Shown here: positions 22,713 to 41,530 of the stretch, in pieces
Layout of the letters: every line of letters starts with the position of its first letter
How positions within the stretch are numbered: position 1 is the stretch's first letter
Source: Georgenia sp. SYP-B2076
Lineage (GTDB): Bacteria; Actinomycetota; Actinomycetes; Actinomycetales; Actinomycetaceae
Reading direction: 5' to 3'
Assembly: GCF_003991205.1 (NCBI RefSeq)
Contig: NZ_RXOZ01000002.1
Location: 62,001 to 126,000 of the forward strand
Length of the DNA stretch: 64,000 bases
The notes under the pieces: model-generated
Told to the model about the DNA's origin: nothing
What the model saw: the letters and a program-made list of their open reading frames with translations, nothing else
Databases searched by the model: none
Program-made: the position numbers and the translations under genes

Positions 22713-22786
22713 CGCGGGGTGGAGCAGCTCGGTAGCTCGCCGGGCTCATAACCCGGAGGTCGCAGGTTCAAATCCTGCCCCCGCTA
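22713..22786 (+). tRNA. Initiator tRNA-fMet (CAU), host of the integrated element
   Basis: The 74-base gene has the initiator hallmarks: C1 unpaired with U72, three G:C pairs below the anticodon loop (GGG...CCC), and anticodon CAT in CTCATAA. The T-arm GCAGG-TTCAAAT-CCTGC is normal. The encoded 3' end reads CTACGAG rather than CTACCA, because the bases after position 73 come from the integrated element. The displaced original end, with CCA, is at 44421-44458. Confidence 0.93.
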
Positions 22787-22787
22787 C
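22753..22787 (+). repeat. attL: 35-bp direct repeat at the tRNA 3' half
   Basis: The 35 bases from the 3' side of the anticodon stem to the base after position 73 are identical to 44421-44455. Sequence differs on both sides of the two copies. This is the integration core of the element. Confidence 0.9.
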
Positions 22788-23208: not shown

Positions 23209-24402
23209 ATGGGTAGGCCGCGAACACCGATCGGCACCTTCGGTGACATCACCTACGTCAAGGTCGCAGGCGGCCGGGTCCGAGCTCGCACCCGCTATCG
23301 CGATGACGACGGCCAGATTCGCCGAGTCTCGGCCACCGGTACCTCGAACAAGGACGCCGAGCGCAACCTCAAGAAAGTGCTAGCACGGAGGCCGAGTCAC
23401 GTCGCCAGGGGAGAGGGGACTGGGGACACTTCCTTTGCCACACTCGTCGAGACCTGGCTGGAAGACCTCGATGCGGAGTCCAAGCTCGCGCCGAGCACGC
23501 GTGCTCTCTACGAGCGCAACATGCGTCAGCTCGTCATGCCTGCCTTCGAGCACTACGTCCTGCGGGAGATCACTGTTCGCAAGGTTGACCAGTTCATCAA
23601 GACACTGGCGACGACCAAGAGCTACAGCATGGCCAAGCAGGCGAGGACTGTCCTGAGCCTCGCCCTCGGTCTTGCCGTCCGCTACGACGCAATCGCCAAG
23701 AACCCGGTCCGCGACACGACCCGGCTCCGAAAGCCGCCGTCCCAGGCGATGGCGCTGACGGCCACGCAGGTCGAGGCGATCCGCGACGCAACTCGAGGTT
23801 GGCGGCGCGGCCCGGGCGTTCCCGGGCCACCGCCAGACGGCCAACTGGAGCAGATCATCGAGATCATGCTCGGGACGTCGGCCCGCATCGGCGAGGTGCT
23901 CGCGATCCGAAGGTGCGACGTCGACGTGATCAGTTCTCCCGCGACCGTGCGCATCTGCGGAACCATCGTGTCACCGGCAGGTAAGCCCACGCACCGACAG
24001 CCGCACCCCAAAACGGCGAAGTCAACCAGGACGGTTTCGGTACCCAGATTCACCGCCGAGGTGCTGGGTCAGCGGCTCGTCGCGATCGTCGCGGAGGACC
24101 CGGAGCACCTGATCTTCTTCACCCGCAACCACACGCCGTTGACGACCAACAACGTTCGCCGGCGTCTGCGCACCGTCCTGGACGGCGCGGGGATCTCGGG
24201 CGTGACGCCACATTCGTTCCGTCGGACCGTCGCGACGGTCATCGACCGGGCCGGCGGTGCGGATCTTGCGGCCGAGATGCTCGGTCACACCTCGTCGAAG
24301 ATCACGAAGGAGCACTACATCGAGCCCGACGAGATGGTGAACCCGGTGACCGCCGAGATCCTCGAATCACTCGCTCCGCGCGAGCGAGACGACCAGAAGT
24401 GA
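23209..24402 (+). CDS. Tyrosine site-specific integrase
   Basis: A 397-residue phage-type integrase. An N-terminal arm-binding domain (residues 1-65) is followed by a SAM-like core-binding domain (FATLVETWLEDLDAESKLAP onward) and the catalytic domain from about residue 175. The catalytic residues are visible: Arg in SARIGEVLAIR, Lys in PKTAKSTRTVSV, HxxR in HSFRRTVAT, His in MLGHTSS and the nucleophile Tyr in ITKEHYIEP. It acts on the tRNA-fMet core at attL/attR. It lies just inside the left end, as expected for such elements. Confidence 0.95.
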   Translation: MGRPRTPIGTFGDITYVKVAGGRVRARTRYRDDDGQIRRVSATGTSNKDAERNLKKVLARRPSHVARGEGTGDTSFATLVETWLEDLDAESKLAPSTRALYERNMRQLVMPAFEHYVLREITVRKVDQFIKTLATTKSYSMAKQARTVLSLALGLAVRYDAIAKNPVRDTTRLRKPPSQAMALTATQVEAIRDATRGWRRGPGVPGPPPDGQLEQIIEIMLGTSARIGEVLAIRRCDVDVISSPATVRICGTIVSPAGKPTHRQPHPKTAKSTRTVSVPRFTAEVLGQRLVAIVAEDPEHLIFFTRNHTPLTTNNVRRRLRTVLDGAGISGVTPHSFRRTVATVIDRAGGADLAAEMLGHTSSKITKEHYIEPDEMVNPVTAEILESLAPRERDDQK

Positions 24403-28000: not shown

Positions 28001-28549
28001 GGGCTGCGCCGCGCCGAGGCCAACCGCCATGACGTCGACACCCTGCTGCCGCGCCTGGTCGCCCAGCGCACGCTGCTCGACGCCGACGACATCGCCGCCG
28101 TCCTCACCGCCCGCCTCGCCCGAGCCACGCGACGGCCCCCACGCGGGACGACCCCGGATCTCGTCGCCGGACTCCTCCCGGCCGCCACCGGCCCACTGCC
28201 CGCCGACGCCGCCCGCGCGCTGACCGAACGCCGCGAGCTCATCGAGACCCGCGCCCGCACCCTCACCGAGGCTGCGATCCGCGATCGGGCGCCCTGGGTG
28301 TACCGCATCGGTGAGCGGCCAGCCGGCGCAAGCGACCGCGAGCAGTGGCTCGCCGAGCTGACCGTCGTCGCCGCCTACCGCGACCGGTACGCCATCACCT
28401 CCGCCGCGCCACTCGGCGCTTCGACCCAGACCCTCGCCCAGGAACGCGACCGGCGCCGAGCCGCCGAAGCCCTGCGCCGCGCCGCGGCCATCGCCCAAAC
28501 CCGGAGGACTCGACCGAGTGGTGCGCGCAACCTCGGGCGCAGCCTCTGA
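25019..28549 (+). CDS. MobF-family relaxase/helicase (TrwC/TraA-like)
   Basis: A 1176-residue conjugative relaxase fused to a helicase. I chose GTG 25019, giving MTVSMRVISAGKGYGYLLRS, the usual actinobacterial opening, rather than ATG 24977. The TrwC domain (1 to about 320) has the candidate nicking tyrosines in GYGYLL and TRYFTEAG and the metal-binding histidine triad with QLHTHVVVSN (near residue 221). The RecD/TraI-like helicase has Walker A GPAGTGKST (about 550), Walker B LVILDEAT (about 619), LVGDPAQLQSV and the late motif VTAHRAQGMTVD. It would nick the element at oriT, pilot the strand and unwind DNA. No coupling protein or secretion gene accompanies it. Confidence 0.93.
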   Translation: MTVSMRVISAGKGYGYLLRSVVQGDGDAAQATAFTRYFTEAGTPPGVWMGNGVAYFGAGELRPGMTATSQQLQTLLGRGNDPVTGANLGQPFREYPTVAERTAALAARVDRGLPGEEFDAEVTRIQAAQAARGPQTATAGFDLTFSVPKSVSVLWGVADANTQELLVAAHHAAVAQVLEFFEREVAATRTGHAGIAQVPVVGVAAMAYDHWDSRANDPQLHTHVVVSNKVMTAHDGQWRTLDSRAVHHSIVALSEHYNAALADRLTGAFGLTWERRERGEDRTAQWEIQGVSEDLVAEFSSRARAIDVATDAKIAAYVIEHGHRPSDRRIVQLRAEATLETRPEKTIRALADLTTEWRARARVIVGGEPTEWARKLTTTQPAQALTAESVPMHLIDQAAAQVVDAVSEKRSTWRHWNLWAEATRRTMGWRFATASDRERVVALVTDAATRRSVQLTPGEVATTPATMRRDDGTSILRPRHSIYYSSEKLLAAEDRLLTLAQDHDAQLVVPPHIVETMPGARGDGVVIDGEQGAAIGQVLTSGRRLDLLVGPAGTGKSTAMAALLGAWTARHGPGSVVGMAPSAAAAQVLAEDLGIGCDNTAKWLHDHHRGKADFRPGQLVILDEATLASTRTLETIATRAAAVGAKVVLVGDPAQLQSVDAGGAFSMLVQDRVGELARLVEVRRFVHEWEKDASLALRDGDVAAIDTYETHGRVREGTTEAMIDAAYQAWQDDLSAGRSSILVTEAAESVRQLNERARAERIQSGLTFTRREVALRDEARASVGDVIITRRNDRRLRTGEGTWVCNGDRWTVTAVGRGETIDVRRVGDLSGVSVTLPAGYVARHVDLGYAVTAHRAQGMTVDTAHVVVSPSTTRENLYVSMTRGRRANTAYVALDKPDPLHTTPADTETSARTVLFGVLNHSGLELSARQTIAAEQERWTSIGQLAAEYETIVATAQQGRWTRLVTDALVGKGGLTIADASQVIASAAFAVLAGGLRRAEANRHDVDTLLPRLVAQRTLLDADDIAAVLTARLARATRRPPRGTTPDLVAGLLPAATGPLPADAARALTERRELIETRARTLTEAAIRDRAPWVYRIGERPAGASDREQWLAELTVVAAYRDRYAITSAAPLGASTQTLAQERDRRRAAEALRRAAAIAQTRRTRPSGARNLGRSL

Positions 28550-29100
28550 GACCGCCCAGGTTTCGACCGGGATCGCACGCATCAGCAGGCACACCTTGTC
28601 TTGGGCCAGGCGCACCTTGAGGGGATCCCGTTGACCCACACGTACACCTAATCGACTCCGGCCAGCGACCGCGGGTTGAACGCGGCCGCCTCCTCCTGCC
28701 ACTGCTCGGCCAGCGGGTGATCGTCTTGGCCGACAACCCGGCGGAGTCGAGGAACTGCTCCAACGCCGGAGCGAAGTCACTGCTGGACAGCCCGTGCAGG
28801 TACAGCAACGGCAACACCTCCGCCACCCGCGGGGATCTGCGCGCCCACGCAGGCAGGATCGCCGAGGCGAACCGCGGCCGCTCACCCGTGGCCTCATCGG
28901 TGCGCTTGTCGTTGACCCGCGGCGCCCGTACCGGCACCGCGTCGGCCGCCGTGGTCACCTCCCGCTCGCCGTGATAGCCGTTGCGCACCACCAGCCGGTG
29001 GCCGTACTCGTCGACCTCGCCGGAGTGGGTCTCGATGTAGGCGGCGACCTCGGCCTGCAACGCCGCCGCCAGCAGCGCGCGCGCCCGCGCGCCCTCGCGC
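28550..29100 (-). pseudogene. IS256-family transposase remnant
   Basis: On the minus strand the frame from about 29090 reads ARALLAAALQAEVAAYIETH, VVRNGYHGEREVTTAADAV, then PRVNDKRTDEATGERPRF and LPLLYLHGLSSSDFAPALEQ, the N-terminal half of an IS256-type Mutator transposase. After SAKTITR the frame is lost. The continuation LAEQWQEEAAAFNPRSLAGVD is followed by an in-frame TAG, and a second shift precedes LKVRLAQDKVCLL. The catalytic DDE region is missing and the piece abuts the relaxase stop. It is dead and has no visible terminal repeats. Confidence 0.85.
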
Positions 29101-29286
29101 CCTCGCGAACGACGGGCGCGGCGGAAGAGCGCCCGGCACCGCTCACAGCGGGCACAAAGGAGGCTCCGGCCGACGCTTCCCACTCGCTGGCGGTGAGCTG
29201 AGCCCTTGCGCTGCGTGTCGCACGGCCGCTACCTGGTCATAGTGAGAAGATGATGACGTGATCCACGTTCGTCGGTAGGAGTCCGC

Positions 29287-30303
29287 TTGAGCGCGTTCGA
29301 TGAGATAGGTCAGCGCGCAGATGCGGGTGGACCTCAAACCATCGCTTTGCTCCGTCGGCTTGGCGCTCAGGTCACGCGTACCTCGTCCTTTCCACCCCCG
29401 ACTGGGCACCGCAGCTGGAGCGCCGAAGCAGTCGATGACCTGCTTGCCGACATGTTCTCAAAGGCCTCGCCCCGCGGCCAGGTTTTCGTCCTCGCCTGCT
29501 ATCTGAAAGCGACGGACCAGGCATCACTCGAGCGGCTCATCTTGGCCAGCATCCGCAACTTCCTGATCGATCAGGCCAAGGGAACCGAGCGCGGCAAACT
29601 CCGCCGCCGTCTCGACACTCTCCTCAGCGATGATGCTCGTTTCGCGCGACCACCCGGACTTGCGGACATTTGGGCCTGGGCGCTCCTCCATCGCGCCATG
29701 GGCCTGTGGCAAGGTGACCTGGAGGAACTGCATCAAGCCGCGGCGCGGGTCCGCGGCTACCAGATTCTTGCCTGGAACACGGCGGGACGAACCCCGAAGC
29801 ACACGGTGGTAGCACTCACGGAGGTCTCCTACGGCGTAATCGACCACGCCGACGGTGCCGTCCGAGACCAGGACCTCGCCGCGGTCATCGAGCGCCGATT
29901 CGCACTCCTTGCACCACCGGTCTTCATTGAGATTCCCGACGGTTCCTTCACCGCGGCCGCGCTCGCCGGGTTCACCGCCAGTGACGACCCAACTGCGGAG
30001 TTGACGGTGCGAGAACAAGCTGAACATCTTTGGCTCACGCTCAGCGCGGAAGAACAAGATCTGCTGCCTGTACTGGGGCAGAGCCTGGACTCCCGGCAGG
30101 CCGCCACCGGCATGGGACGCGCGGCGACACAAGCGCTGAGCGCGGCTCTGACTGATCGGCTAAGGCTGGCCACCGTTGATGACCGGCATCGCGAGGACAT
30201 CATTCTGCACCTGGCAGCGCTCGCACGCACCAACAATGAATCACGTCGTCTGTCCCAGGTGGGACCGCACCTAGCGGGGTCAGCCGGAGAGGAGTTGAGG
30301 TGA
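29287..30303 (+). CDS. Sigma-factor-like protein of unknown function (regulatory module, gene 1)
   Basis: A 338-residue protein from TTG 29287, chosen because GTAGGAG (29275-29281) is well spaced. Residues about 50-110 (VFVLACYLKATDQASLERLI, then LASIRNFLIDQAKGTERGKL) resemble sigma region 2. A helical pair near residues 245-290 (LWLTLSAEEQDLLPVLGQSL, then RQAATGMGRAATQALSAAL) is laid out like region 4. The match is by eye and weak; a plain HTH regulator is possible. The stop overlaps the next start by GTGA. Codon use is less GC-biased than in chromosomal neighbours, as in the rest of the element's cargo. I propose it senses or transmits the signal that the linked protease completes. Confidence 0.6.
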   Translation: MSAFDEIGQRADAGGPQTIALLRRLGAQVTRTSSFPPPTGHRSWSAEAVDDLLADMFSKASPRGQVFVLACYLKATDQASLERLILASIRNFLIDQAKGTERGKLRRRLDTLLSDDARFARPPGLADIWAWALLHRAMGLWQGDLEELHQAAARVRGYQILAWNTAGRTPKHTVVALTEVSYGVIDHADGAVRDQDLAAVIERRFALLAPPVFIEIPDGSFTAAALAGFTASDDPTAELTVREQAEHLWLTLSAEEQDLLPVLGQSLDSRQAATGMGRAATQALSAALTDRLRLATVDDRHREDIILHLAALARTNNESRRLSQVGPHLAGSAGEELR

Positions 30304-31190
30304 CTGGTGATGCTGCACGTCCGCAGTCGAAGCTTGAAGTAGCCGCCTCAAGCGTCACTGTTCCGGCCGAGGTGCGCGCGGCGTGGACCGGGGTCGCGCC
30401 GGGGCTGACTGTTGGGCAAATCTGGCGCGCACGCTGGGACGACCAGGTCCAACTCGTCGTCATCCTCGGCGCCGACCGGCGCCCCACAGCAATCCCTCTG
30501 TCATTCGACCTCGACTACACCGACTCCACCACGACGCCGATCGCGGCTGCGGCCAACCCGTTCAACGTTCCGGTGATCGTCTGGTCCGGGCTCGCCCAGG
30601 CCCTCCCCCTCGTCGTCTTCGACCGCTTCGCCGGTCAGCTGTCCCCAGAGGTCACCGCCTCGCTGGCCTCGGAGCCGGCACGATCCGCCGAGGATCGTTC
30701 ACTGCCGCACCCGGTACGCGTGTATCGAGCGTTGCTCGAAGACGCGATGGGGGAACTCTCGGCTGCGCGCTGGTACGAGAGCGGGTCGGGTGACTTGAGT
30801 GCGATACTGCACCGGGCCGACCTGACGGTTCAGGACGTCGCAGCAGCCCTCGGAGCGACACCGCAGAGGGCGTTGGCAATCTGGCGTGGCCAATTGGCGC
30901 TGAGCCACGAGGAGGCGGAGAAGGTCGCTCCGTTGATCGGCGAGTCAGCCGAAACCCTGTTGGCGGCGAACCCTGCGCCACCAGCGGACCTCGTCGCCTC
31001 CCTGGAACAACCGGTGCGTCATCGCCTGGTTCTGGCCTACGCCGCCAGGCGCAGCGTGAAGGTCCCTACCGCTTACCGAGACCTCGCGTACCAAACCTGG
31101 GCTCTCGCCGCGCGGCAGACCGGTCAGAAGACGACGAACTGGAACCTTCGGCTCGACACCCTCTTTGCGGCGGTGCTCGATGAACCCTGA
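30300..31190 (+). CDS. HTH protein with N-terminal beta domain (regulatory module, gene 2)
   Basis: A 296-residue protein from GTG 30300. Residues 36-115 (GLTVGQIWRARWDDQVQLVV, then AIPLSFDLDYTDST) suggest a small beta barrel of the PemK/MazF or SH3 kind; no toxin residues are certain. Residues 174-222 (DLTVQDVAAALGATPQRALA, then LALSHEEAEKVAPLIGESAE) form an XRE-like helix-turn-helix. It is coupled by overlaps to both neighbours (4 bp and 11 bp). In analogous pairs, an HTH protein is the repressor cut by the ImmA/IrrE peptidase encoded beside it; I infer that relation here. Confidence 0.6.
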   Translation: MTGDAARPQSKLEVAASSVTVPAEVRAAWTGVAPGLTVGQIWRARWDDQVQLVVILGADRRPTAIPLSFDLDYTDSTTTPIAAAANPFNVPVIVWSGLAQALPLVVFDRFAGQLSPEVTASLASEPARSAEDRSLPHPVRVYRALLEDAMGELSAARWYESGSGDLSAILHRADLTVQDVAAALGATPQRALAIWRGQLALSHEEAEKVAPLIGESAETLLAANPAPPADLVASLEQPVRHRLVLAYAARRSVKVPTAYRDLAYQTWALAARQTGQKTTNWNLRLDTLFAAVLDEP

Positions 31191-32241
31191 CCGTCACCGC
31201 CCAATCAGTGTGCCCAGGAACCAGGTCATCGCACAGGTGACGGCCATGCTCGACTACATCGACGCATCCGACCCAGGCATCCGCTCGCGGCTGTTCGACG
31301 ACGTCTTGAGCACGTTGGCAAGCAGAGACGAGATCGATGTGCGTTTGGTCCCCGATCAGGAAGTCGACGGATCTGGATGCAGTGTGGCCGGCGGGTACCT
31401 CGCCGACCACACGCCGCCCGTTCTCGTCATCTCAGAATCAGCCAGCCGTGGTCGACGGGCCTTCACCGCGTTGCACGAGTACGGCCATCACCTCCAGCAG
31501 AGTGTCTTCGACCTCATGGAAGGCCTAACACAGCAACCCGACGGCGGCCTCGCGTTGGAGGACGCGGCCTGTGACACTTTCGCCTCCGCCATCTTGCTGC
31601 CCAAAGAGCTGGTCAAGAAGCACATCGGGGACCGAGGCCCGTCAGCGGACACCGCGCTGTCGCTGTGGCACGCCGCGCCGCAAGTCTCCCGGGCGGCCGT
31701 CTGCGTCCGTGCTGCCCTGACGCTCCAGACCCCGGGTCACGTGACGCTCCTCGACGAGAACGGCGTCGTCGTCTTCTCCTCCTCCCGCGAGCTTCCCCCG
31801 CTGCATCGAGGCAGCGACCAATCTCGAGTGAGCATCGTGGCCGCCGCACGACAGGCGCCCATGCGTATCCTCGACGGCGAGGCGGAGTTCTTCTACCGCG
31901 ACGGCATCCGCGGTCAGGCACTGTATGCGCAGGCAGCCGACATGGGCGGCATGACCGTCATCGTCTCCGTGACCGAACGGGCGGCCTGGCGGAAGCTGTC
32001 CTTGCCACGGAAGGACAACGGCCCCAAAGGCGTGTTCCGAATCTGTGAACATGGCGCGTGTGGACACGAGTTCCGCACGTTTGAGCGCCCATGCGAGCAG
32101 TGCAGTGTCCCGAGGTGTCCAGAATGCGGACAGTGCAACTGCGGCTTCCGGCTGCGGGAACGCACCTGCCCGTCGTGTTACCTGGTGAAAGCCGCCCATC
32201 TCTTCGACGACACCACCGGAGCCTGCCAAGACTGCTCCTGA
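31180..32241 (+). CDS. ImmA/IrrE-family metallopeptidase with C-terminal zinc ribbon (regulatory module, gene 3)
   Basis: A 353-residue protein. The gluzincin motif is HEYGHH at residues 99-104, and the third zinc ligand is probably Glu-127 in LEDAACDTFASAILLP, the usual ImmA/IrrE pattern. A middle domain (about 190-280) is unassigned. The C-terminal 65 residues contain some twelve cysteines (CEHGACGHEF, CEQC, CPECGQCNC, CPSCY, CQDC), that is two or three zinc-ribbon knuckles. ATG 31180 lies inside the preceding gene. ImmA-type peptidases cleave HTH repressors after DNA damage or phage signals. The metallopeptidase CapP with its HTH partner CapH controls some CBASS operons, which is a precedent for this gene's place upstream of a CD-NTase. 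Confidence 0.85.
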   Translation: MNPDRHRPISVPRNQVIAQVTAMLDYIDASDPGIRSRLFDDVLSTLASRDEIDVRLVPDQEVDGSGCSVAGGYLADHTPPVLVISESASRGRRAFTALHEYGHHLQQSVFDLMEGLTQQPDGGLALEDAACDTFASAILLPKELVKKHIGDRGPSADTALSLWHAAPQVSRAAVCVRAALTLQTPGHVTLLDENGVVVFSSSRELPPLHRGSDQSRVSIVAAARQAPMRILDGEAEFFYRDGIRGQALYAQAADMGGMTVIVSVTERAAWRKLSLPRKDNGPKGVFRICEHGACGHEFRTFERPCEQCSVPRCPECGQCNCGFRLRERTCPSCYLVKAAHLFDDTTGACQDCS

Positions 32242-32318
32242 ACAGGGCGGCGGCTGAAAGCGAAATACGTCGTCTGCCCTCGGTAGAGCATCGAAGTGAT
32301 GCTTCGCGCGGGACTCGA

Positions 32319-32352
32319 CGCCGGGAGAGTCACCAGCTCACTGCTCCCGGCG
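32319..32352 (+). promoter_or_regulatory. Hairpin just upstream of the CD-NTase start
   Basis: CGCCGGGAG (32319-32327) pairs with CTCCCGGCG (32344-32352) around a 16-base loop; the stem ends 11 bases before ATG 32364 and would occlude the weak ribosome binding site GAGAAG. A second small inverted repeat, AGCATC-N5-GATGCT (32287-32303), lies upstream in the same 122-bp gap and could be an operator. Confidence 0.45.
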
Positions 32353-32363
32353 AGAAGAACATC

Positions 32364-33425
32364 ATGACAACCATCAGCCCGACCATCACCCTTGAACAAA
32401 TCGTCAACCAGGCCCGCCGCAGGATCGAGGTCTCCGACGCCGAACTCGACGAAGCACGAAAGCGCCGCGCTGCTATCGGCGCTGCGCTCCGCAACGAGTT
32501 CAGCGGCAGCCGCACCTACGTCAACGGCAGCATCGCTCACGGGGATGCGCTGACCCCACTGACAGACGTCGACCTCGGCGTCGTGGTGCCCAATCCCGAC
32601 CACGAGTACGGTCCGGGCAAGCGCGGGCCGAAGGACCTCAAGGAGCGCGCCGCAGACGCTATCCGTGCCGGCCTCAAAGAGGAATACGGTGATCTCGCCG
32701 TCGAAGTCAAGGGCCGCAAGCGCTCCATCCTCGTGCGATTCCGCGACCCGGTTGCCCCGGGACAACCCGACTTCACCGCCGACGTGATCGTCGCCATCGA
32801 CAACCCTGACGGCGCCGGCCTCTACATCCCTCGATTCGATAGCTGGGACCGCTCGCACCCCGAGAAGCACACCGAACTCGTGAGAATCGCGAACACGAGC
32901 ACCGACGCCTGCTTCGCCCGGATCGTGCGACTGCTGAAGCACTGGAACCGGAGCAACGGCAAGCCGCTGTGCTCCTGGAACATCAAGGCCCTCGCACTCA
33001 ACTGTGTCGATGCCCCCACTGCGCTAATCCCGGGTCTACGCGCATGGTTCGACTTCGCGATCAAGGAACTCTCTCGCGGCGAGACACCTGATCCTGCCGG
33101 GGTCGCGGAGAAGCCCATCAAGCTCAACGGCATCCGCACCGAAGTGATCCGTCGGCTCACGCGCGCACTGGAGAAGCTCGACCGCGCGATCGAGTACGAG
33201 AAGACCGGCTACATCGCCCTCGCCCACAACGACCTCGCCAAGTTCTTCAACGACCCCAAGATGCTGCCCGCCCCGGACCCCATTGCGGTGATGCAGGAAG
33301 AAGCCCGGCGGATCACCGCGCAGAAGGCCAAGGACAGCAAGACGTTCGGTACCCCCGCCCTCCTCACCGGCACCGGCGCCTCCGCGGGCCGCGAACGCGG
33401 AAACGTACGCTCATGGGGAGCCTGA
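32364..33425 (+). CDS. CBASS CD-NTase (cGAS/DncV-like nucleotidyltransferase)
   Basis: A 353-residue enzyme of the cGAS/DncV-like family, which makes a cyclic di- or trinucleotide second messenger when phage infection is sensed. The active site is clear: GSIAHGDALTPLTDVDLGVV gives the GS motif (55-56) and the metal-binding Asp-68 and Asp-70; the third acidic residue is Asp-140 in DFTADVIVAI. The C-terminal helical part has the usual WNIKALALN region. It ends RSWGA; in E2-linked systems the CD-NTase C-terminal tail is the part that becomes conjugated. Its 3' end overlaps the E2 gene by 13 bp. The clade and product nucleotide cannot be told by eye. Confidence 0.88.
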   Translation: MTTISPTITLEQIVNQARRRIEVSDAELDEARKRRAAIGAALRNEFSGSRTYVNGSIAHGDALTPLTDVDLGVVVPNPDHEYGPGKRGPKDLKERAADAIRAGLKEEYGDLAVEVKGRKRSILVRFRDPVAPGQPDFTADVIVAIDNPDGAGLYIPRFDSWDRSHPEKHTELVRIANTSTDACFARIVRLLKHWNRSNGKPLCSWNIKALALNCVDAPTALIPGLRAWFDFAIKELSRGETPDPAGVAEKPIKLNGIRTEVIRRLTRALEKLDRAIEYEKTGYIALAHNDLAKFFNDPKMLPAPDPIAVMQEEARRITAQKAKDSKTFGTPALLTGTGASAGRERGNVRSWGA

Positions 33426-33892
33426 GCCCACGGTGGTACGGGGCCGACCCGGCGTGGGCACTCCCGTTCCAGCGCGACGCGAGACGCCACTACGGCCCAG
33501 CGGTCACCGTCACCTTGCGGCCCTACAACCTCCTCTACCGCCACGAGGGACTCCATATCCCAGGGCGTGACGGACCCGTCCCCGTAGAGGTCCGATTCGA
33601 AGCCCGGCCTCTCTACGACACCTACGGGCTTTCGCCTCAGGACTATCCACGGGTGTTCGCCGACCCCGGATTGGCCTCGCCCCACCGCATGCCCGACGAC
33701 AGCCTCTGCCTGTTCTACCCCGGCGATCCACGCGAACGAAGATGGATGGCGGACGACGGGCTGCTCGCTCTCCTGAATCTCGCCGGCGACCACCTGTTCT
33801 TCGAGACCTACTGGCGCCACACCGGAGGCCACCAAGGCGGCACGTGGCTGGCGCCGGAAGCACCGCACGGCTATCAAGGTGGCAGGCCATGA
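33413..33892 (+). CDS. CBASS E2-like conjugating protein (no E1)
   Basis: A 159-residue protein. The pattern HRMPDDSLCLFYPGDPRERR around residues 91-110 is the E2-like catalytic region, with Cys-99 the likely active cysteine and Trp-111 following; TYWRHTGGHQGGTW ends the fold. No E1 (ThiF-like) or deubiquitinase gene is present, which matches 'type II-short' CBASS, in which an E2-only protein primes the CD-NTase by linking its C-terminus to a partner. ATG 33413 lies inside the end of the CD-NTase gene and the stop overlaps the effector start by ATGA. The three are one tight operon. Confidence 0.8.
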   Translation: MGSLSPRWYGADPAWALPFQRDARRHYGPAVTVTLRPYNLLYRHEGLHIPGRDGPVPVEVRFEARPLYDTYGLSPQDYPRVFADPGLASPHRMPDDSLCLFYPGDPRERRWMADDGLLALLNLAGDHLFFETYWRHTGGHQGGTWLAPEAPHGYQGGRP

Positions 33893-34410
33893 CGCCGACC
33901 CAGCTGCCCGCTACCGAAGCGACCCTCGCGATCGAGCCGCTCAGCTGGGACGGCATCGCAACCGTCCTCGCCGCAGTCCTTGCCGCGATCGTCGCCGTCC
34001 TCGGCTACAGCATCCAGCAAAGGATCGCGCGAAAGGAGCGCCGGGCCGTGATCTACAGCGAAGCGCTGCGCGCGGTTGAGGACTACCTGGAAGCGCCATA
34101 CCTCGTGCGCCGCCGCGACGGGTCCACCTCCGCACGCCAGACCATCACCACCCACATCAGCGAAATCCAATCCAGGCTGTCCTACTACTGCGCCCTGCTC
34201 GACATCCACGCGCACTCCGAGATCAGCACGGCATACCGCACGCTGGTGTCCGCGGCGCGAGCCGAAGGCGGCAAGGCGATGTCACAGGCGTGGAAGAGCC
34301 GGCCCACACGACGTGATGGCGGAGTTCCCATCGGCGCCCGCTACAACCGCTCCCGCAGTGATGATGCGCGCAAGGGCTACATCGAAGCGATCCGACATCG
34401 AGACGCTTGA
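33889..34410 (+). CDS. Single-TM membrane protein, predicted CBASS effector
   Basis: A 173-residue protein. One strong membrane segment lies at about residues 20-43 (IATVLAAVLAAIVAVLGYSI), followed by basic QQRIARKERR, so the C-terminal 125 residues face the cytoplasm. That part is helical and polar (AVEDYLEAPYLVRRRDG, then ISEIQSRLSYYCALLDIHAH). No enzyme motif is seen. The third position after CD-NTase and E2 is where CBASS effectors stand, often membrane-perforating TM proteins. I infer that it oligomerises on binding the cyclic nucleotide and breaches the inner membrane. A one-TM rather than two-TM layout would be less usual. Confidence 0.65.
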   Translation: MTPTQLPATEATLAIEPLSWDGIATVLAAVLAAIVAVLGYSIQQRIARKERRAVIYSEALRAVEDYLEAPYLVRRRDGSTSARQTITTHISEIQSRLSYYCALLDIHAHSEISTAYRTLVSAARAEGGKAMSQAWKSRPTRRDGGVPIGARYNRSRSDDARKGYIEAIRHRDA

Positions 34411-34931: not shown

Positions 34932-36938
34932 GTGTCAGTCCTTTCGAGCTTCGTGTGGAGTGTCGCCGACACCCTGCGCGGTCCCTACGCCGAGGCCGAG
35001 TATGGCTCGGTGATCCTGCCGTTCACGGTGCTGCGCCGCCTGGAGTGCGTGATGGAGCCGCACCGCGAGGCGATGGCCGAGATCGTCGCGAAGTACCCCG
35101 GCGAGCAGCAGCGGCGCACGCACCTGAAGATCGCCACCCGCACCGAGGACAGCGCCGGACTGTCGTTCTGGACCACCAGTGCCTACACGCTGAAGAAGGC
35201 GCTGCAGGACCCGGACAACCTGGCCGAGAACCTCATCGACTACGTGGGCGGGTTTTCCGCGAACCTCGACGTGTTCAAGTCCTTCGGCTTCGAGAACGTC
35301 ATCCGCACCCTCGACGAGCGCGACCGCCTGGCCCAGGTCGTCCGCCACTTCGACAGGATCGACCTGTCTCCCGATGCCGTCTCGAACGCGGACATGGGGG
35401 ACCTGTTCGAGAACCTCATCTACCGGTTCGCCGAGTCCGCCAACGACGGTGCCGGCCAGTTCTACACGCCCCGCGACGTCGTGAGGCTCCTAGTCGATCT
35501 GGTCTACGCCGAGGACACCGAGGCGCTGCGGGACCGCGGTACCGTGCGGTCGATCTACGACCCGACCGTCGGCACCGGCGGCATGCTGACCGTCGCCGAC
35601 GAGCACCTGCACGGGCTCAACCCGGACGCCTCCACGGCCCTGTTCGGGCAGGAGATCAACCCGCGCACCTACGCGATCTGCAAGGCGGATCTCCTGATCA
35701 AGGGCCAGGACCCGTCGAACGTCCGGCAGGGAGACACGCTCGTGGTCGACCGGTTCGAGGACCGCCGCTTCGACTACGTGCTCTCCAATCCGCCATTCGG
35801 GACCGACTGGAAGGCCGTCGAGTCGGACGTGAAGAACGAGCACGCGCGTGGGGGACAGGGGCGCTTCATGCCGGGGCTCCCGGCCGTCGGCGACGCCGCG
35901 ATGCTGTTCCTGCTGCACGTCGCGTCGAAGATGCGCGACGTCGACGACAGCGGCCGCGGCGGCAAGGCCGGCATCGTCCTCAACGGCTCGCCGCTCTTCA
36001 ACGGCGGCGCGGGCTCCGGGCCATCGGACATCCGCGGCCACATGCTTGAGAACGACATGGTCGAGGCGATCGTCGCCCTGCCGAACGACATGTTCTACAA
36101 CACCGGCATCGCCACGTACCTGTGGATCCTGTCGAACGCCAAACCCGATGAGCGCGTGGGCAGGTTGCAGCTGATCGACGCCACGGGGCTGGGGTCGAAG
36201 CTGCGCAAGTCGATCGGCTCCAAGCGCGTCGAGATCGCCGAGAAGGGCCGCGAGGCGATCGTGCGCGCCTTCGCCGGGACCGAGAGCGAGGACGATGAAA
36301 CCACGGTGCCGGTGAAGGTGTTCGACAACCTCGACTTCGCCTACTGGAGCGTGACCGTCGAGCGCCCGCTCCAGCTGCGCTTCGCGTGCACCCCAGAGGC
36401 GATCAGCGCCGTGTCTGAGCACAGGACGCTCGGCAAGATCACCGGGCTGACCGATGCCCTCGAGTCCTTCGGCGACGAGCCGTACCTGAACCGCGAGAAG
36501 TTCAACCGCGAGCTCGGCAAGCACCTCGGTGACCAGGGACTCCGCCTGACCACGGCGCGGCGCAAGACCCTGTGGCAGACCATCGGCGTCCACGACGAGA
36601 CCGCGGACGTCTGCGTGTACGCCTCGGGTGCGCAGAGGGGCGAGCCGGAGCCGGACGCGGCGCTCCGTGACACAGAGAACGTGCCCTTCGGATGGGGGGG
36701 CCACCCGAAGACCCACGAGGCGCTCGAGGAGACCGTGCAGGCGTACTTCGACGCCGAGGTGAAGCCGCACGTCGACGACGCCTGGATCGACTGGTCGAAG
36801 ACGAAGACCGGCTACGAGATCCCGTTCACCCGGCACTTTTACTCCTACGAGCCGCCAAGGCCGCTCGACGAGATCGACGCCGATCTCGAGAGGGTCGTCG
36901 GCGAGATCATGACGTTGCTCCGCGAGGTGGAAGCGTGA
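34932..36938 (+). CDS. hsdM: Type I restriction-modification methyltransferase subunit HsdM
   Basis: A 668-residue N6-adenine methyltransferase subunit, longer than the usual 500-550. The N-terminal HsdM_N helical domain starts LSSFVWSVADTLRGPYAEAE. SAM-binding motif I is DPTVGTGGM (near residue 210), and catalytic motif IV is SNPPFGTDW (near 285). About 130 extra C-terminal residues end in a coiled coil (LERVVGEIMTLLREVEA). GTG 34932 overlaps nothing upstream; the 133-bp spacer holds small inverted repeats (ACGCG-AA-CGCGT at 34829-34840). The stop overlaps hsdS by GTGA. With HsdS it methylates the recognition site to protect self DNA. Confidence 0.93.
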   Translation: MSVLSSFVWSVADTLRGPYAEAEYGSVILPFTVLRRLECVMEPHREAMAEIVAKYPGEQQRRTHLKIATRTEDSAGLSFWTTSAYTLKKALQDPDNLAENLIDYVGGFSANLDVFKSFGFENVIRTLDERDRLAQVVRHFDRIDLSPDAVSNADMGDLFENLIYRFAESANDGAGQFYTPRDVVRLLVDLVYAEDTEALRDRGTVRSIYDPTVGTGGMLTVADEHLHGLNPDASTALFGQEINPRTYAICKADLLIKGQDPSNVRQGDTLVVDRFEDRRFDYVLSNPPFGTDWKAVESDVKNEHARGGQGRFMPGLPAVGDAAMLFLLHVASKMRDVDDSGRGGKAGIVLNGSPLFNGGAGSGPSDIRGHMLENDMVEAIVALPNDMFYNTGIATYLWILSNAKPDERVGRLQLIDATGLGSKLRKSIGSKRVEIAEKGREAIVRAFAGTESEDDETTVPVKVFDNLDFAYWSVTVERPLQLRFACTPEAISAVSEHRTLGKITGLTDALESFGDEPYLNREKFNRELGKHLGDQGLRLTTARRKTLWQTIGVHDETADVCVYASGAQRGEPEPDAALRDTENVPFGWGGHPKTHEALEETVQAYFDAEVKPHVDDAWIDWSKTKTGYEIPFTRHFYSYEPPRPLDEIDADLERVVGEIMTLLREVEA

Positions 36939-38308
36939 GCGTCGTAGTCCCGGATGCCGTTGCCGAGCGCGTTCACAAGTGGCTTGGAGACATTCCGGCC
37001 GGTTGGAGCGGGGCTCGACTGTTCGAGGTCGCAGACGCGTGGACGAGCAACGTAGACAAACACACAGTCGAGGGGCAGCCCTCGGTCCGGCTCTGCAACT
37101 ACGTGGACGTCTACAAGAACGACTCCATCGTCGACTCACTCGACTTCATGGCCGCTTCCGCGACGCATGACCAGATTAGGAAGTTTCGAATCCGCCAAGG
37201 TGACACCCTCATCACCAAGGACTCCGAGACTGCGGACGACATCGGCGTCCCGGCCTTCGTCGAGTACGAAGCCGAAGACCTCGTCTGCGGCTACCACTTG
37301 GCCATCATCCGGCCCCACGGGCGAAAGGTCGTTCCGAGGTTCCTCTATTGGGCGCTTGATTCGGAGCCCATCGCCCGTCAGTGGAGTGTCACCGCCGCAG
37401 GCGTGACTCGTGTCGGTATCCGCAGCACCGACCTCAACAAGGTTACGATCCCGCTCCCGCCGCCCGACGAGCAGCGCGCCATCGCCGACTACCTGGACCA
37501 CGAGACGGCCCAGATCGACGTGCTCGTCGCCAAGCAGGAGGAGTTCGTCGGGCTGCTGCAAGAGCGCCGAGGTGCTGTCCGGGACAAACTGATGACCGCT
37601 GGTGTCGTGCAAGGTCGGAGCGTCGAAGCAACCGGAAGCGCCTGGCTCTCGGAACTGCCGCGTGGCTGGCGGGCCGTTCCCACGCGACGCCTGCTTGAAC
37701 TTGGGCCCTCCAATGGCGTCTCACCCGAGGCAGGCCGCGTCGGCGATCTGCGCTCGTTGTCGATCGGTGCGGTCCGCAATGGGCGGGTGAGACTCGCAGA
37801 CGACGTCACGAAGTACGTCGACCGAGCCGCGGTGAGTGACATTTCGCGTCTGCGCCTTGAACCTGGTGACGTGCTCATCGTTCGCGGCAACGGCAACATC
37901 AGTTTGGTCGGACGGGCGGGGCTGGTCGGCGACGAATTCGGCCAACAGGAGTACATCTATCCCGACCTCTTGATCAGAATCCGCACAACTCCCGACATGC
38001 TTCCCGAGTTCTTCGTTGCTGCGTTCGACGCGCCCGCGAGTCGAGCACAGATCGAGCTGTTGGCGCGGACGACAGTGGGAACCTTCAAGGTTTCAGCTGC
38101 TGATGTCAAATCCATCGTCTTGCCACGTCCGCCTATAGATGAGCAGCACGCGATCGTCGAGCACATCAACGAGCAGACCACCCGCATCGATGCCCTGATC
38201 GCGAAGGCCGAGGAGCACATCGTCCTCGCCAAGGAGCGGCGCTCGGCGCTGGTCACGGCGGCGGTGACGGGGCAGATCGACGTACGCACGGCACGGAAGG
38301 CGAGCTGA
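36935..38308 (+). CDS. hsdS: Type I restriction-modification specificity subunit HsdS
   Basis: A 457-residue specificity subunit with the usual two target-recognition domains. Each ends in the conserved pattern: PPPDEQRAIADYLDHETAQI near residue 180, and RPPIDEQHAIVEHINEQTTR near residue 405. Each is followed by a helical spacer that sets the gap between half-sites. The two halves differ in sequence, so the recognition site is asymmetric and bipartite. GTG 36935 overlaps the hsdM stop. Nothing suggests phase variation: no recombinase or second specificity cassette lies nearby. Confidence 0.92.
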   Translation: MSVVVPDAVAERVHKWLGDIPAGWSGARLFEVADAWTSNVDKHTVEGQPSVRLCNYVDVYKNDSIVDSLDFMAASATHDQIRKFRIRQGDTLITKDSETADDIGVPAFVEYEAEDLVCGYHLAIIRPHGRKVVPRFLYWALDSEPIARQWSVTAAGVTRVGIRSTDLNKVTIPLPPPDEQRAIADYLDHETAQIDVLVAKQEEFVGLLQERRGAVRDKLMTAGVVQGRSVEATGSAWLSELPRGWRAVPTRRLLELGPSNGVSPEAGRVGDLRSLSIGAVRNGRVRLADDVTKYVDRAAVSDISRLRLEPGDVLIVRGNGNISLVGRAGLVGDEFGQQEYIYPDLLIRIRTTPDMLPEFFVAAFDAPASRAQIELLARTTVGTFKVSAADVKSIVLPRPPIDEQHAIVEHINEQTTRIDALIAKAEEHIVLAKERRSALVTAAVTGQIDVRTARKAS

Positions 38309-38311
38309 ACC

Positions 38312-41300
38312 ATGGCGGCACCCGACGGAACCCGCGAGGAGGCGTTCGAGACCGAGATCGCCGAGCACCTCGCAGCGCACGGCTGGGAGTACAGCGAGAC
38401 CGACGACGGCTACGACGCCGAGCGGGCGGTCTGGCCGGAGGACGTGCACTGGTGGCTGAGCGAGACGCAGCCCAGCCAGTACGCGAAGGTCGTCCGCGTC
38501 GGCACCGCAGCTGAGGCCGCCGACCGCGAGGCGCTGCTGTCGTCCCTCGTCGCCCGGCTGGACACCCCGATGAGCTCCGGCGGCGGCACGCTGAACGTGC
38601 TGCGCCGGAAGTTCTCCCACACCCGCGGGGCCACCGCGCACCTGCGGATGTGCCAGTTCAGGCCGGCCACGACCCAGAACCCGACGACCACCGAGCACTA
38701 CGGGAAGGTGCGGCTGCGCGTCGTCCGACAGCTGCACTTCTCGCCGAAGCGCGGGGACTCCCGCTCGATCGACCTGGTCCTGTTCGTCAACGGCTTGCCG
38801 GTGGCGACCATCGAGCTGAAGTCGTTCTTCAAGCAGGAGTGGCGCACGGCCGTCAGCCAGTACCGGAAGGACCGCGAACCGGCCGGGCAGCCGCTGCTCG
38901 GCTTCGGCACGCGCGCCCTCGTCCACTTCGCCGTCGACGACGACCAGGTCCACATGACCACGAAGCTGGCGGGGGAGAGGACCCACTTCCTGCCCTTCAA
39001 CCGCGGCCACGAGGACACCGGCGCAGCGGGCAACCCGCAGGACCCGCACGGGGCCGCCACGTCGTACCTGTGGGAGCAGGTCCTGCAGCGCGACAACTGG
39101 CTGGCGATCCTCGGCTCCCAGATGTTCCTCAAAACCGAGGCCCACGAGGACCCCGCCACCGGGAGAATCAAGCGGTCCACCACGCTGATGTTCCCGCGCT
39201 ACCACCAGTGGCGCGCCGTGAAGAAGCTCGTGGACTCGATCGCGGACGAGGGCCCGGGCCGCCGCTACCTGATCGAGCACAGCGCCGGTTCGGGGAAGAC
39301 GAACACCATCGCCTGGACGGCGCACCGGCTCGCGCGGCTCCACGACCAGGCGAACGCGAAGGTCTTCGACAAGGTCCTGATCGTCTCGGACCGCCGGGTC
39401 CTGGACGCGCAACTGCAGCAGGCGGTAGAGCAGGTCGACGACACCGTCGGCACGGTCGCCGTCATCGACTCGGCGGCCGTGCGCCGCTCAGGCGGCTCGA
39501 AGTCCCGCGCCTTGCTGGACGCCCTGACCGGCTCGGCGCTGATTATCGTCGTGACGATCCAGACGTTCCCCTACGTCAAGGGTCTGCTGGAGACGACGCT
39601 GGGCGACAAGAACTTCGCCGTGATCGTCGACGAGGCGCACACCTCGCAGTCCGGCAAGACCGCCGCCGACCTGAAGAAGGTCCTCACCGAGGGCGGGCAG
39701 ATCGCGACCGATGAGGAGCTCGACGCGCAGGACGTCGTCAACGAGCTGGTCGAGGCCGACGACGCGCGAGAGCAGCAGATCGCCGCCGAGACCGCCGCCC
39801 GGGCCGGTGCTCGGAACGTGTCGCTGCTGGCCTTCACGGCGACGCCGAAGACGAAGACCAAGACGCTCTTCGGGCGCGAGAACGACGGGGGGCTGCCGGT
39901 CTCGTTCGACGTCTACCCGATGCGGCAGGCGATCGAGGAGGGCTTCATCCTCGACGTGCTGCGCGGCTACCAGACCTACCGGACCGCGTTCGAAATCGAG
40001 CAGCGCGGCGAGGACGGTGTCGTCACGGGCATCGTGGAGGGCGGCGACGACCGCCTGGTGGACCCCAAGGTCGCCGCCCGCAAGATCATGCGGTTCGCGA
40101 ACCTGCACCCGACGAACGTCGGCCAGAAGGTCGAGATCATCGTCGAGCACTTCCGCGCGAACGTCGCCCAGCTCCTCGACGGGCACGCCAAGGCGATGGT
40201 CGTCACGGATTCCCGGCAGGCCGCGGTCCGGTACAAGGTGGAGGTCGACAAGTACCTCGCGCAGAAGGGCTACGGGTACCAGTCGATCGTCGCGTTCTCC
40301 GACAAGATCAGCGACGACGAGTACGGGCTGACCGACGTCACTGAGGCGTCGATGAACCCCGGTCTCGGCTCCGACCTCGCGCGGGAGTTCCGCCGGCCCG
40401 AGTACCGGCTGATGCTCGTCGCCGACAAGTTCCAGACAGGGTTCGACCAGCCGCTGCTGTGCGCGATGTACGTCGACAAAAAGCTCCCCGACGTGCACGC
40501 GGTGCAGACGCTGTCGCGGCTCAACCGAACCTACCGAGCGCCGTCGGGGGAGGTGAAGGACCGCACATTCGTGCTCGACTTCGTCAACGACCCGGCCGAG
40601 ATCCGCGAGGCCTTCCTGACCTACTACCTCGAGGCTCACGTCGAGACCGAGACCGACCCAAACTTGGTGCACCGGCTCGCGACCAAGCTGACCCAGACAC
40701 GGATCTACTCGCCCGAGGACGTCGAGCGCTACGCGGAGGCGTGGTGGACGCCTACGCAGTCGCACGCGGCGCTGGCCGCCGCGGTGACACCGGCGCGCGA
40801 CGGGTTCGCGAGCCGGTGGGCCGAGGCCGTGGAGGGACAGGACAGCCAGGCGCTCGACGAGCTGCGCACGTTTCGCAAAGACTGCGGCTCCTACGTGCGC
40901 CTATACGACTTCATGTCGCAGGTGGTCGACTACGGCACCAGCGATCTCGAGAAGCTCGCCGAGTTCCTGAGGCAGCTGGTGCGGCTGCTCCCGTCCGACG
41001 ACACGGGCGGGGACGCCGACGTGTCCGGGCTCGAGCTGCGCCGCGTCCGCCAGATCGACCAGGGCAGGGCCGACATCGGCCTCTCCGGCGACCAGGACAC
41101 GCCGGGTCTGTCAGGCATCACGGGCGTCGGGTCGGGAGTGTCGCGTCCCGACCCTCAGCAGGAGCTGCTGTCGGAGGTCGTCGCCCGGATCAACTCGCTG
41201 TTCGGCACGGAGTTCGCGGACCCGCAGATCGAGGGCTTCGTGATAGCCGCGGCCGGCATGGCCGAGGAGGACCAGCGCATCGCCGACCAGATCGACCACA

Positions 41301-41530
41301 ACGCCGTCGACCAGTTCCTGGCCTCGCCCGAGCTGCGCGAGACGCTGACCGACGCCGCTGTGCTGAACGAGGGGGCGTTCGGCAAGCTCACCGGTGCGCT
41401 GACCGGCGACAACGAGCGCGCCGACGAGTTCATCCGCCTGATCGGTCAGTACCTGTACCAGTCGCGCCGGATGCGGATGGCGGACGAGACGGATTCTGAG
41501 GACGCCGGTGCCTCCGACCAGGGCGTGTAG
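38312..41530 (+). CDS. hsdR: Type I restriction endonuclease subunit HsdR
   Basis: A 1072-residue motor and nuclease subunit. The nuclease core PD-(D/E)xK is in SRSIDLVLFVNGLPVATIEL followed by KS (near residues 150-172). The helicase has Walker A HSAGSGKT (near 323), DEAH in VIVDEAHTSQSG (near 439), motif III LLAFTATP and late motifs MLVADKFQTGFDQP and VQTLSRLNRTYR. It pulls unmodified DNA and cuts it far from the site. It starts 3 bases after hsdS. All motifs appear intact. Confidence 0.93.
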   Translation: MAAPDGTREEAFETEIAEHLAAHGWEYSETDDGYDAERAVWPEDVHWWLSETQPSQYAKVVRVGTAAEAADREALLSSLVARLDTPMSSGGGTLNVLRRKFSHTRGATAHLRMCQFRPATTQNPTTTEHYGKVRLRVVRQLHFSPKRGDSRSIDLVLFVNGLPVATIELKSFFKQEWRTAVSQYRKDREPAGQPLLGFGTRALVHFAVDDDQVHMTTKLAGERTHFLPFNRGHEDTGAAGNPQDPHGAATSYLWEQVLQRDNWLAILGSQMFLKTEAHEDPATGRIKRSTTLMFPRYHQWRAVKKLVDSIADEGPGRRYLIEHSAGSGKTNTIAWTAHRLARLHDQANAKVFDKVLIVSDRRVLDAQLQQAVEQVDDTVGTVAVIDSAAVRRSGGSKSRALLDALTGSALIIVVTIQTFPYVKGLLETTLGDKNFAVIVDEAHTSQSGKTAADLKKVLTEGGQIATDEELDAQDVVNELVEADDAREQQIAAETAARAGARNVSLLAFTATPKTKTKTLFGRENDGGLPVSFDVYPMRQAIEEGFILDVLRGYQTYRTAFEIEQRGEDGVVTGIVEGGDDRLVDPKVAARKIMRFANLHPTNVGQKVEIIVEHFRANVAQLLDGHAKAMVVTDSRQAAVRYKVEVDKYLAQKGYGYQSIVAFSDKISDDEYGLTDVTEASMNPGLGSDLAREFRRPEYRLMLVADKFQTGFDQPLLCAMYVDKKLPDVHAVQTLSRLNRTYRAPSGEVKDRTFVLDFVNDPAEIREAFLTYYLEAHVETETDPNLVHRLATKLTQTRIYSPEDVERYAEAWWTPTQSHAALAAAVTPARDGFASRWAEAVEGQDSQALDELRTFRKDCGSYVRLYDFMSQVVDYGTSDLEKLAEFLRQLVRLLPSDDTGGDADVSGLELRRVRQIDQGRADIGLSGDQDTPGLSGITGVGSGVSRPDPQQELLSEVVARINSLFGTEFADPQIEGFVIAAAGMAEEDQRIADQIDHNAVDQFLASPELRETLTDAAVLNEGAFGKLTGALTGDNERADEFIRLIGQYLYQSRRMRMADETDSEDAGASDQGV

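Follow-up and report, generated by a model that had tools for sequence, protein, structure and literature searches.

A sigma-like protein, a MazF-fold/HTH protein and an M78 peptidase encoded ahead of actinobacterial immune operons: a possible mobile controller

Directly upstream of a compact cyclic oligonucleotide-based antiphage signalling system (CBASS) in Georgenia sp. SYP-B2076, three overlapping genes of the same strand raise the question whether they switch this CBASS on and off, form a separate defence system beside it, or serve immune operons more generally. We analysed a stretch of 64,000 nucleotides of this genome (contig NZ_RXOZ01000002.1, positions 62,001 to 126,000), referred to here as the window. 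An original prediction, made from the sequence alone, had read the genes starting at 29287, 30300 and 31180 as encoding a sigma-like protein (gene 1), a helix-turn-helix (HTH) protein with an N-terminal beta domain (gene 2) and an ImmA/IrrE-type peptidase (gene 3). The overlapping open reading frames (ORFs) were confirmed, as was the same-strand CBASS operon, which begins at 32364, 122 bp past gene 3, and whose genes gave strong PADLOC matches. What also held was the description of the triad as a control module resembling CapH/CapP, enlarged by extra parts and placed immediately ahead of CBASS, with a capP match for gene 3, an HTH protein as its partner and gene 1 in addition.

Gene order among relatives and the operons downstream

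Six-frame profile searches, with gene order taken from coordinates, found genes 1, 2 and 3 in this order in 72 of 86 loci centred on the peptidase. Since the same order recurs so often, the arrangement is not a matter of chance. The 86 loci comprise the window, four plasmid loci, one genome of an order-level sample (L015) and the best 80 of 85 relatives from a contig scan with a gene 3 alignment, a set that leans to close relatives of the window peptidase; these best 80 of 85 all read as actinobacterial. For the counts, gene 3 ORFs were excluded from the gene 2 profile, and downstream classes were assigned by alignment coordinates. Three irregular triads are included: in Glycomyces sp. YM15 (L070, 1590-3623) genes 2 and 3 form one open frame of 677 aa, in L014 gene 1 is a fragment, and in L030 it lies in two frames. 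Of the 14 loci without a triad, four are cut at a contig end (L025, L059, L063 and L087) and ten are distant or broken (L093-L102; L098 also lies at a contig end, and gene 3 of L101 is broken). In L094, L096, L097 and L100, where no gene 1 was found, the gene 3-like peptidase is preceded by a short HTH protein that corresponds to no more than the C-terminal half of gene 2; judged by sequence, this is a possible ancestral form.

The genes following the triad were tallied for 70 triads, two others (L060 and L103) ending at the contig edge, and were named by Pfam and PADLOC on representatives. A recognised immune operon lies on the same strand directly 3' of 57 of the 70: CBASS in 31 cases (CD-NTase, E2 and one-transmembrane (1TM) effector in 29, HNH-SAVED with CD-NTase in 2), E1 (ThiF) with multiubiquitin and/or DUF6527 or E2 in 22, and an operon of MBL, E2-ThiF-JAB and patatin in 4 (among them L029, reclassed from other). 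The remaining 13 lead to other or unrecognised genes, and 4 of these keep DUF3892. Because 26 of the 70 triads precede multiubiquitin/E1 or E2-E1-JAB operons, compared with 31 that precede CBASS, the triad is not CBASS-specific, and the proposal of a dedicated CBASS switch had to be given up. From these neighbourhoods the triad appears to be a general controller of immune operons and not a part of CBASS. The other suggestion of the original prediction, a separate defence system that happens to lie beside CBASS, is not supported: in 57/70 cases the triad leads into a recognised immune operon on its own strand, and the boxes described below mark gene 2 and that operon. A triad occurring mostly without CBASS had been named as a finding that would speak against CBASS regulation; raw counts point that way (31/70 with CBASS), but after dereplication CBASS follows 25 of 45 triads, the one representative at a contig end being left out. 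Dereplication at 80% gene 3 identity, with one representative per cluster, gave 46 triads: 25 with CBASS (24 + 1 of the two types), 10 with Ubl/E1, 1 with MBL, 9 with other genes and 1 at a contig end.

The four plasmid loci show the same variety. The triad precedes CBASS in a Sinomonas plasmid (L011) and DUF3892, ThiF and DUF6527 in a Streptomyces cathayae plasmid (L012); it is also present in a plasmid of S. longwoodensis (L013), where CBASS was assigned by homology. The triad of a Mycolicibacterium chubuense plasmid (L014) is damaged, with its gene 1 fragment and gene 3 in two frames, and stands ahead of multiubiquitin, E2-like and ThiF genes. In the order-level search of 396 genomes, gene 3 was found in 10, namely the own genome, G051 (the triad locus L015) and eight with weaker matches (L016-L023), so that the triad is present in 2 of 10 gene 3-bearing genomes. 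The eight weaker loci, kept out of the 86, have a two-gene form of gene 2 (matched by the profile over its full length, but split in L020) and gene 3; neither gene 1 nor a profile-recognised immune-operon gene was found in them. Gene 1 profiles, run against 396 genomes of the phylum and 394 of the class that were not chosen by gene 3, matched six genomes besides the own one. Four of these have full triads, before Ubl/E1 in G432 and G579 and before CBASS in G812 and G1026 (the latter seems to be the same record as L074); G864 has a gene 1 fragment with stops and no neighbour was found, and G706 is considered further below.

The window CD-NTase matches 7 of the 394 class genomes, five of which have the same operon of CD-NTase, E2 and 1TM effector. 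Three of these five operons stand behind a triad (own genome, G812 and G1026). In G417 (L154, 3644-5617) the same CBASS type is preceded by a divergent pair of short HTH and M78 genes with the look of CapH/CapP; the slot of the triad can thus be filled by a CapH+CapP-like pair, and the gene neighbourhoods suggest an apparent swap of controllers. In G238 this CBASS type lies behind a large helicase-like gene, and none of the three triad genes was found there.

Some downstream regions have features of their own. In L045 (10126-10407) and further loci of Streptomyces, gene 3 is separated from the multiubiquitin/E1 or MBL operon by a DUF3892 gene, which L030, L031, L032 and L036 retain even though no known operon could be recognised beyond it. 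Small ORFs with an AVTGKFV...RRNPKSTV-like motif directly follow gene 3 in L051 and L072 (two copies in L072). The triads of L050, L054, L055, L066, L089, L090 and L092 are followed by genes that match none of the profiles used; these are candidates for undescribed operons.

A pair of boxes that goes with gene 1

Applied to the 46 dereplicated triads, a Gibbs sampler returned one motif in the stretch between gene 3 and the operon (best score 455, shuffled 268-272) and the same motif ahead of gene 2 (408 versus 246-260). On the 5' side of gene 1 its best score of 303 was little beyond the shuffles (272-281). A box ahead of gene 1, searched for by the sampler and by a position weight matrix (PWM), was rejected as none exceeded chance. 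The box of the joint model, TRYSTCGTCWGTCC, was significant (p<=0.05 against mononucleotide shuffles, dereplicated triads) on the immune side in 39/46, on the gene 2 side in 41/45 and on the gene 1 side in 1/45. With a PWM trained on the immune side only and dinucleotide shuffles, the corresponding numbers were 38/46 (the training side), 35/45 and 1/45. At a PWM score >=6 the box precedes gene 2 in 40/45 dereplicated triads; on the immune side it is present, at the same score, in 21/24 CBASS-E2-1TM, 10/10 Ubl/E1, 1/1 MBL, 1/1 CBASS-HNH and 4/9 other loci. All but one of 38 immune-side boxes (37/38) start past the gene 3 stop, and 16 of the 40 gene 2-side boxes lie past the gene 1 stop. The two boxes of one locus are more alike than boxes of different loci (10.5 versus 8.19 of 14; 40 loci), a likeness reached by 0/5000 permutations and to which clade structure contributes. 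A 16-base pattern searched in the own genome with <=2 mismatches gave two matches, exactly at the places of box 1 and box 2. The triads of G432, G812 and G1026 likewise have boxes ahead of gene 2 and of the operon.

In one clade, whose gene 1 is the more distant, the box is bipartite (GGAC-N16-CGTC). The pattern GGAC-N16-[CT]GTC occurs on the immune side in 14/46, on the gene 2 side in 17/45 and on the gene 1 side in 0/45, and other spacers in the range from 12 to 20 gave 0-5 occurrences. Split by gene 1 subfamily, GGAC-N15-17-CGTC was found on the immune side in 11/33, 3/5 and 0/4 (shuffle means 1.27, 0.14 and 0.14) and ahead of gene 1 in 0/32, 0/5 and 1/4. The -10 elements of extracytoplasmic function (ECF) sigma factors are often CGTC, and the layout of GGAC-N16-CGTC looks like that of a -35/-10 pair. 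GGAACTT is given as a -35 box in the available part of a review (PMC8103513). In the window clade the box is not palindromic.

Past box 2 of the window there is a dyad, which is not significant alone (p 0.25). Dyads of varying sequence but similar placement follow the immune-side box elsewhere too, e.g. in L085, L056 and L067. As a universal operator the dyad found little support, occurring in some loci with few significant singly; an operator or an RNA stem-loop is possible.

Sixteen loci encode gene 2-/gene 3-like proteins with no gene 1 found (L093-L097, L099, L100, L102 and L016-L023); in four of them (L094, L096, L097 and L100) the match to gene 2 is confined to its C-terminal half, and L096 is a short contig. 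No profile-recognised immune operon was found downstream in these 16 loci. The box stands ahead of gene 2 in 1/16 (L018, p 0.03) and past gene 3 in 1/17 (L097; L098 added), with 0/8 past gene 3 in L016-L023. Triads that are cut or broken have the box past gene 3 in 4/5 (L025, L059, L063 and L101, not L087). As the box is nearly absent where gene 1 is missing, its presence goes along with that of gene 1 and of the immune operon, a co-occurrence that favours gene 1 as the putative reader of the box.

The three proteins and their locus

Gene 3 matches Pfam Peptidase_M78 (3e-9) and PADLOC capP (2e-13), and among structure-linked profiles IrrE (3dte, 5.6e-8) and CapP (7t5t, 0.0075). It contains HEYGHH, and ten Cys of its tail are invariant in an alignment of five sequences, in agreement with the predicted ImmA/IrrE-type peptidase with a Cys-rich tail.

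For gene 2, the AlphaFold2 (AF2) model (pLDDT 91.2, pTM 0.83) has an N-terminal beta domain whose best 50 of 585 Foldseek rows are all MazF-family chains (prob 1.00; best 6l29, E 2.3e-4; TM by target 0.59-0.69 among these best 50 of 585). By this model, the domain has a MazF fold. The single protein gave weak HTH matches (HigA/cyanase); a 70-row profile gave HigA 1.5e-5, DdrO (6rnz) 1.1e-3 and MazF3 0.021 (profile positions 47-118), which together with the model bears out an HTH protein with an N-terminal beta domain. MazF proteins have catalytic Arg and Thr residues. The MazF R-P-V motif was not seen in gene 2 in a weak hhalign alignment (E 0.052) to two MazF-type proteins, and the MazF-like domain is probably without nuclease activity.

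The AF2 model of gene 1 (pLDDT 87.0, pTM 0.62) consists of a region 2-like N part, a helical/winged middle, a region 4-like C part and an extra C-terminal helix. For the structure models, aligned sequences were selected by hand among the reference proteins, and a few near-duplicates were dropped. The single gene 1 protein had no Pfam, PADLOC or NCBIfam match at E<=1. Foldseek rows 1-9 are polymerase entries read as sigma chains (best E 0.011, TM 0.15-0.20 by query), and region 4 fragments (SigL in 3hug, SigD in 3vfz) reach TM 0.58-0.66 by target length, but with E above 2. For hhalign, ten ORFs taken as sigma proteins were assembled from the 12 PF04542 loci of the own genome (two loci were unrecovered, and one ORF is doubtful). 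Residues 1-130 of gene 1 align with their region 2 side (P 0.0017, HH probability 6%) and residues 236-335 with their region 4 side (P 0.00025, HH probability 19%), and these matches stand in sigma order. The indications are weak but mutually consistent. A divergent sigma70-like protein acting as a sigma factor is the interpretation that suits gene 1 best, without this proving that it belongs to that family.

Table 1. Features of the triad and the CBASS operon in the window
Feature	Position	Strand	Remarks
Gene 1, sigma-like, 338 aa	29287-30303	+	TTG start, AGGAG in front
Gene 2, MazF-fold N-terminal domain + HTH + C-terminal helices, 296 aa	30300-31190	+	GTG start
Gene 3, M78 (ImmA/IrrE/CapP-type) metallopeptidase with Cys-rich tail (about 32050-32241)	31180-32241	+	ATG start
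Box 1, CACGTCGTCTGTCC	30242-30255	+	within gene 1 3' end; starts 58 bp ahead of gene 2
Box 2, TACGTCGTCTGCCC	32266-32279	+	24 nt past gene 3 stop, ahead of CBASS
Dyad AGCATC-gaagt-GATGCT, possible operator	32287-32303	+	directly past box 2
CBASS CD-NTase	32364-33425	+	PADLOC Cyclase PDLC00779, E 2.1e-169
CBASS E2-like protein	33413-33892	+	PADLOC E2 PDLC00869, E 9.6e-74
CBASS 1TM effector	33889-34410	+	PADLOC Effector 1TM PDLC00666, E 1.1e-70

Genes 1-3 are open frames of one strand, with the gene 2 start overlapping the gene 1 stop and the gene 3 start within gene 2. According to ORFs and PADLOC, the CBASS of the window comprises CD-NTase, E2 and effector in one operon without E1, which we take to be an E2-only (short type II) system with a 1TM effector. 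The next large same-strand ORF is HsdM (Pfam/PADLOC); it belongs to a type I restriction-modification operon 3' of CBASS on the same strand (34932-41530), in which two more large ORFs were read by eye as HsdS and HsdR.

The final 35 nt of a tRNA-Met (22713-22787) are repeated at 44421-44455, and triad and CBASS sit on an integrated element of roughly 21.7 kb bounded by these repeats. An integrase ORF lies at 23209-24402 within the element, and a large ORF at 24977 was read by eye as a TraA-type relaxase; the element also carries the triad, CBASS and the type I restriction-modification system. A second tRNA-Met at 46444 equals the first in 74/75 nt. Adjoining the region 5' of gene 1, there is a transposase-like ORF on the minus strand (28395-29183; by eye an IS256-type remnant), and the native promoter of gene 1 may therefore be disturbed.

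A proposed controller, its alternatives and its relatives

Building on the observed gene content and order, the alternative downstream operons and the paired boxes with their association to gene 1, we propose that the triad is a mobile controller of adjacent immune operons, a reading to which we incline, if only slightly. It would be used by actinobacterial immune operons, mostly those with E2/E1-type conjugation proteins. Gene 1 would be a dedicated alternative sigma factor, with region 2 and region 4 around an inserted middle domain, that reads two promoters: genes 2-3 would be served by box 1 and the immune operon by box 2. Both promoters would be silenced by gene 2, either through repression at the start site, through binding of gene 1, or in both ways. 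Gene 3 would sense DNA damage (single-stranded DNA, as in PprI and CapP) and cleave gene 2, whereupon the sigma factor would fire the immune operon and in the same stroke reset its own brake. Sigma activity, the box-binding protein, repression, cleavage of gene 2 and the DNA-damage trigger are what we infer here. The single frame of genes 2 and 3 in Glycomyces sp. YM15 also speaks for the proposal. PprI is described as a repressor-cleaving peptidase activated by single-stranded DNA (PMC10904395), and for CapP, cleavage of an HTH protein is likewise activated by single-stranded DNA (PMC13373217, PMC10904395), according to the parts of these papers that were available.

Several results weigh against this proposal. 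For gene 1, the original label "sigma-like" found agreement in the part-wise hhalign matches and the Foldseek rows, weak as they are, but not in Pfam or over the full length: the full-length protein had no match among the ten own-genome sigma ORFs (hhalign, P 0.52), and 66 gene 1 members searched against Pfam gave no sigma match and three stray single-member hits (one of them GerE). PF04542 has 12 matches elsewhere in the own genome and none at gene 1, and no Foldseek row of gene 1 has an E below 0.001, its top rows being long alignments with an rmsd of about 17-24 A. In G706 a gene 1 homologue stands alone, without genes 2-3. As to the boxes, the coding stretch ahead of gene 3 also beats its shuffles (418 versus 259-261), so coding conservation alone can raise the sampler score; it contributes on the gene 2 side as well, where 17 of the 40 boxes lie within gene 1 and 7 across its end. 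No recognisable GGAC or -35 element accompanies the CGTC box in the window clade, and the G579 triad has no box ahead of gene 2 or of the operon among its four best sites. A backwards control of the 16-base pattern likewise gave two matches in the own genome; the count thus means nothing, and only the places of the matches are telling. Two points loosen the link between gene 1 and the box: loci lacking gene 1 are only distantly related and could have divergent sites, and triads were the basis of both the profiles and the joint PWM.

An alternative is the plain logic of CapH+CapP, in which gene 2 would be the repressor, the boxes two operators (one of them autoregulatory) and gene 3 the protease that cleaves gene 2, while gene 1 would not be a sigma factor but would bind DNA in an accessory role or act as a co-repressor. 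The HTH of gene 2 is closest to the HigA/DdrO repressors, gene 3 matches CapP, operators ahead of repressor and target are a usual layout, and several loci have a dyad past box 2. Moreover, genes 2-3 exist as a two-gene form without gene 1, and the CBASS type of the window follows a short HTH + M78 pair in G417. Operators of this kind are, however, at odds with a box that in one clade has two parts exactly 16 bp apart, that is non-palindromic in the window clade, and that stands ahead of gene 2 in 1/16 loci keeping genes 2-3 without gene 1; we thus consider this explanation possible, though rather unlikely.

Two further readings assign gene 2 other roles. It could chiefly be an anti-sigma factor for gene 1 that hardly touches DNA, with gene 3 freeing gene 1 by proteolysis. 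The order sigma, regulator, protease and the overlaps in the window would suit such a partner switch, and it is a familiar principle that sigma factors are set free by proteolysis; the gene 2 family nevertheless keeps an HTH that matches DNA-binding repressors (70-row profile), as expected of a DNA binder, and we regard this version as doubtful at best. Alternatively, the triad might be an autonomous defence or toxin-antitoxin unit with the MazF-like gene 2 as toxin, merely travelling with CBASS. Gene 2 does have the MazF fold, and M78-like/HTH pairs have been studied as toxin-antitoxin-like systems (PMC10538038, in its available part), but an R-P-V-type MazF motif was not seen in gene 2 (weak alignment, two MazF-type sequences), and the fixed place ahead of several unrelated immune operons together with the shared boxes points to control of the neighbour. 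This last reading appears very improbable to us.

Among known systems, CapH+CapP is the nearest in kind, with an M78 peptidase beside an HTH protein by CBASS/Bub-type immune operons. The placement by immune operons is alike (57/70), whereas three genes instead of two are found in 72/86 loci: the triad adds gene 1, a MazF-fold domain fused to the HTH protein, which in CapH+CapP is a small repressor, and the Cys-rich peptidase tail. It also has paired CGTC boxes and lies all on one strand, in contrast to the divergent pair of G417. CapK+CapS and CapW/BrxR resemble the triad as interchangeable transcription controllers ahead of CBASS, Bub/Bil and other immune operons (PMC13373217), but the former is a kinase with a STAS-wHTH repressor and the latter a WYL repressor, and the available part of that paper mentions no sigma-like partner. 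IrrE/PprI and DdrO of Deinococcus, which control DNA-damage-response genes (PMC10904395, available part), have an M78 domain related to gene 3 (3dte, 5.6e-8) and an HTH related to that of gene 2 (6rnz, 1.1e-3). ECF-type sigma factors may share with gene 1 the order of region 2- and region 4-like parts and, in one clade, the bipartite box of fixed spacing, whereas gene 1 is too divergent for Pfam, has an extra middle part and C-terminal helix, and is partnered by a MazF-HTH protein with an M78 peptidase. We know of no MazF-like domain in Deinococcus DdrO and of no sigma-like partner of it. The likeness to MazF/PemK ribonucleases lies in the predicted fold of the gene 2 N-terminal domain, which differs in its fusion to an HTH, in the R-P-V motif not seen and in the absence of a toxin-antitoxin layout.

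CapW/BrxR, CapH+CapP and CapK+CapS are the damage-responsive controllers named in the available part of PMC13373217, where CapW or CapH+CapP is reported at 219/544 Bub operons; some of these might be the triad described here. The triad was not found in the titles or abstract openings of the open-licence literature searched. By comparison of the sequences, the triad seems related to CapH+CapP but extended by further parts, and its putative sigma factor might set it apart as a separate kind. Whether it is a fourth kind of DNA-damage-type immune controller, the first to be run by a locus-encoded sigma factor, as a plug-in cassette with paired promoter boxes for different operons (CBASS, multiubiquitin/E1, E2-E1-JAB/patatin), is in our view evenly balanced.

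A cell has to keep immune operons silent if their action kills it. If the proposal is true, a sigma factor of its own would add activation, beyond de-repression, to the known controllers of such operons, and would explain a box common to different actinobacterial E2/E1-type operons. TRYSTCGTCWGTCC beside an M78 gene would then be a sequence handle for further immune operons, 13 of the 70 triads leading to unclassed genes.

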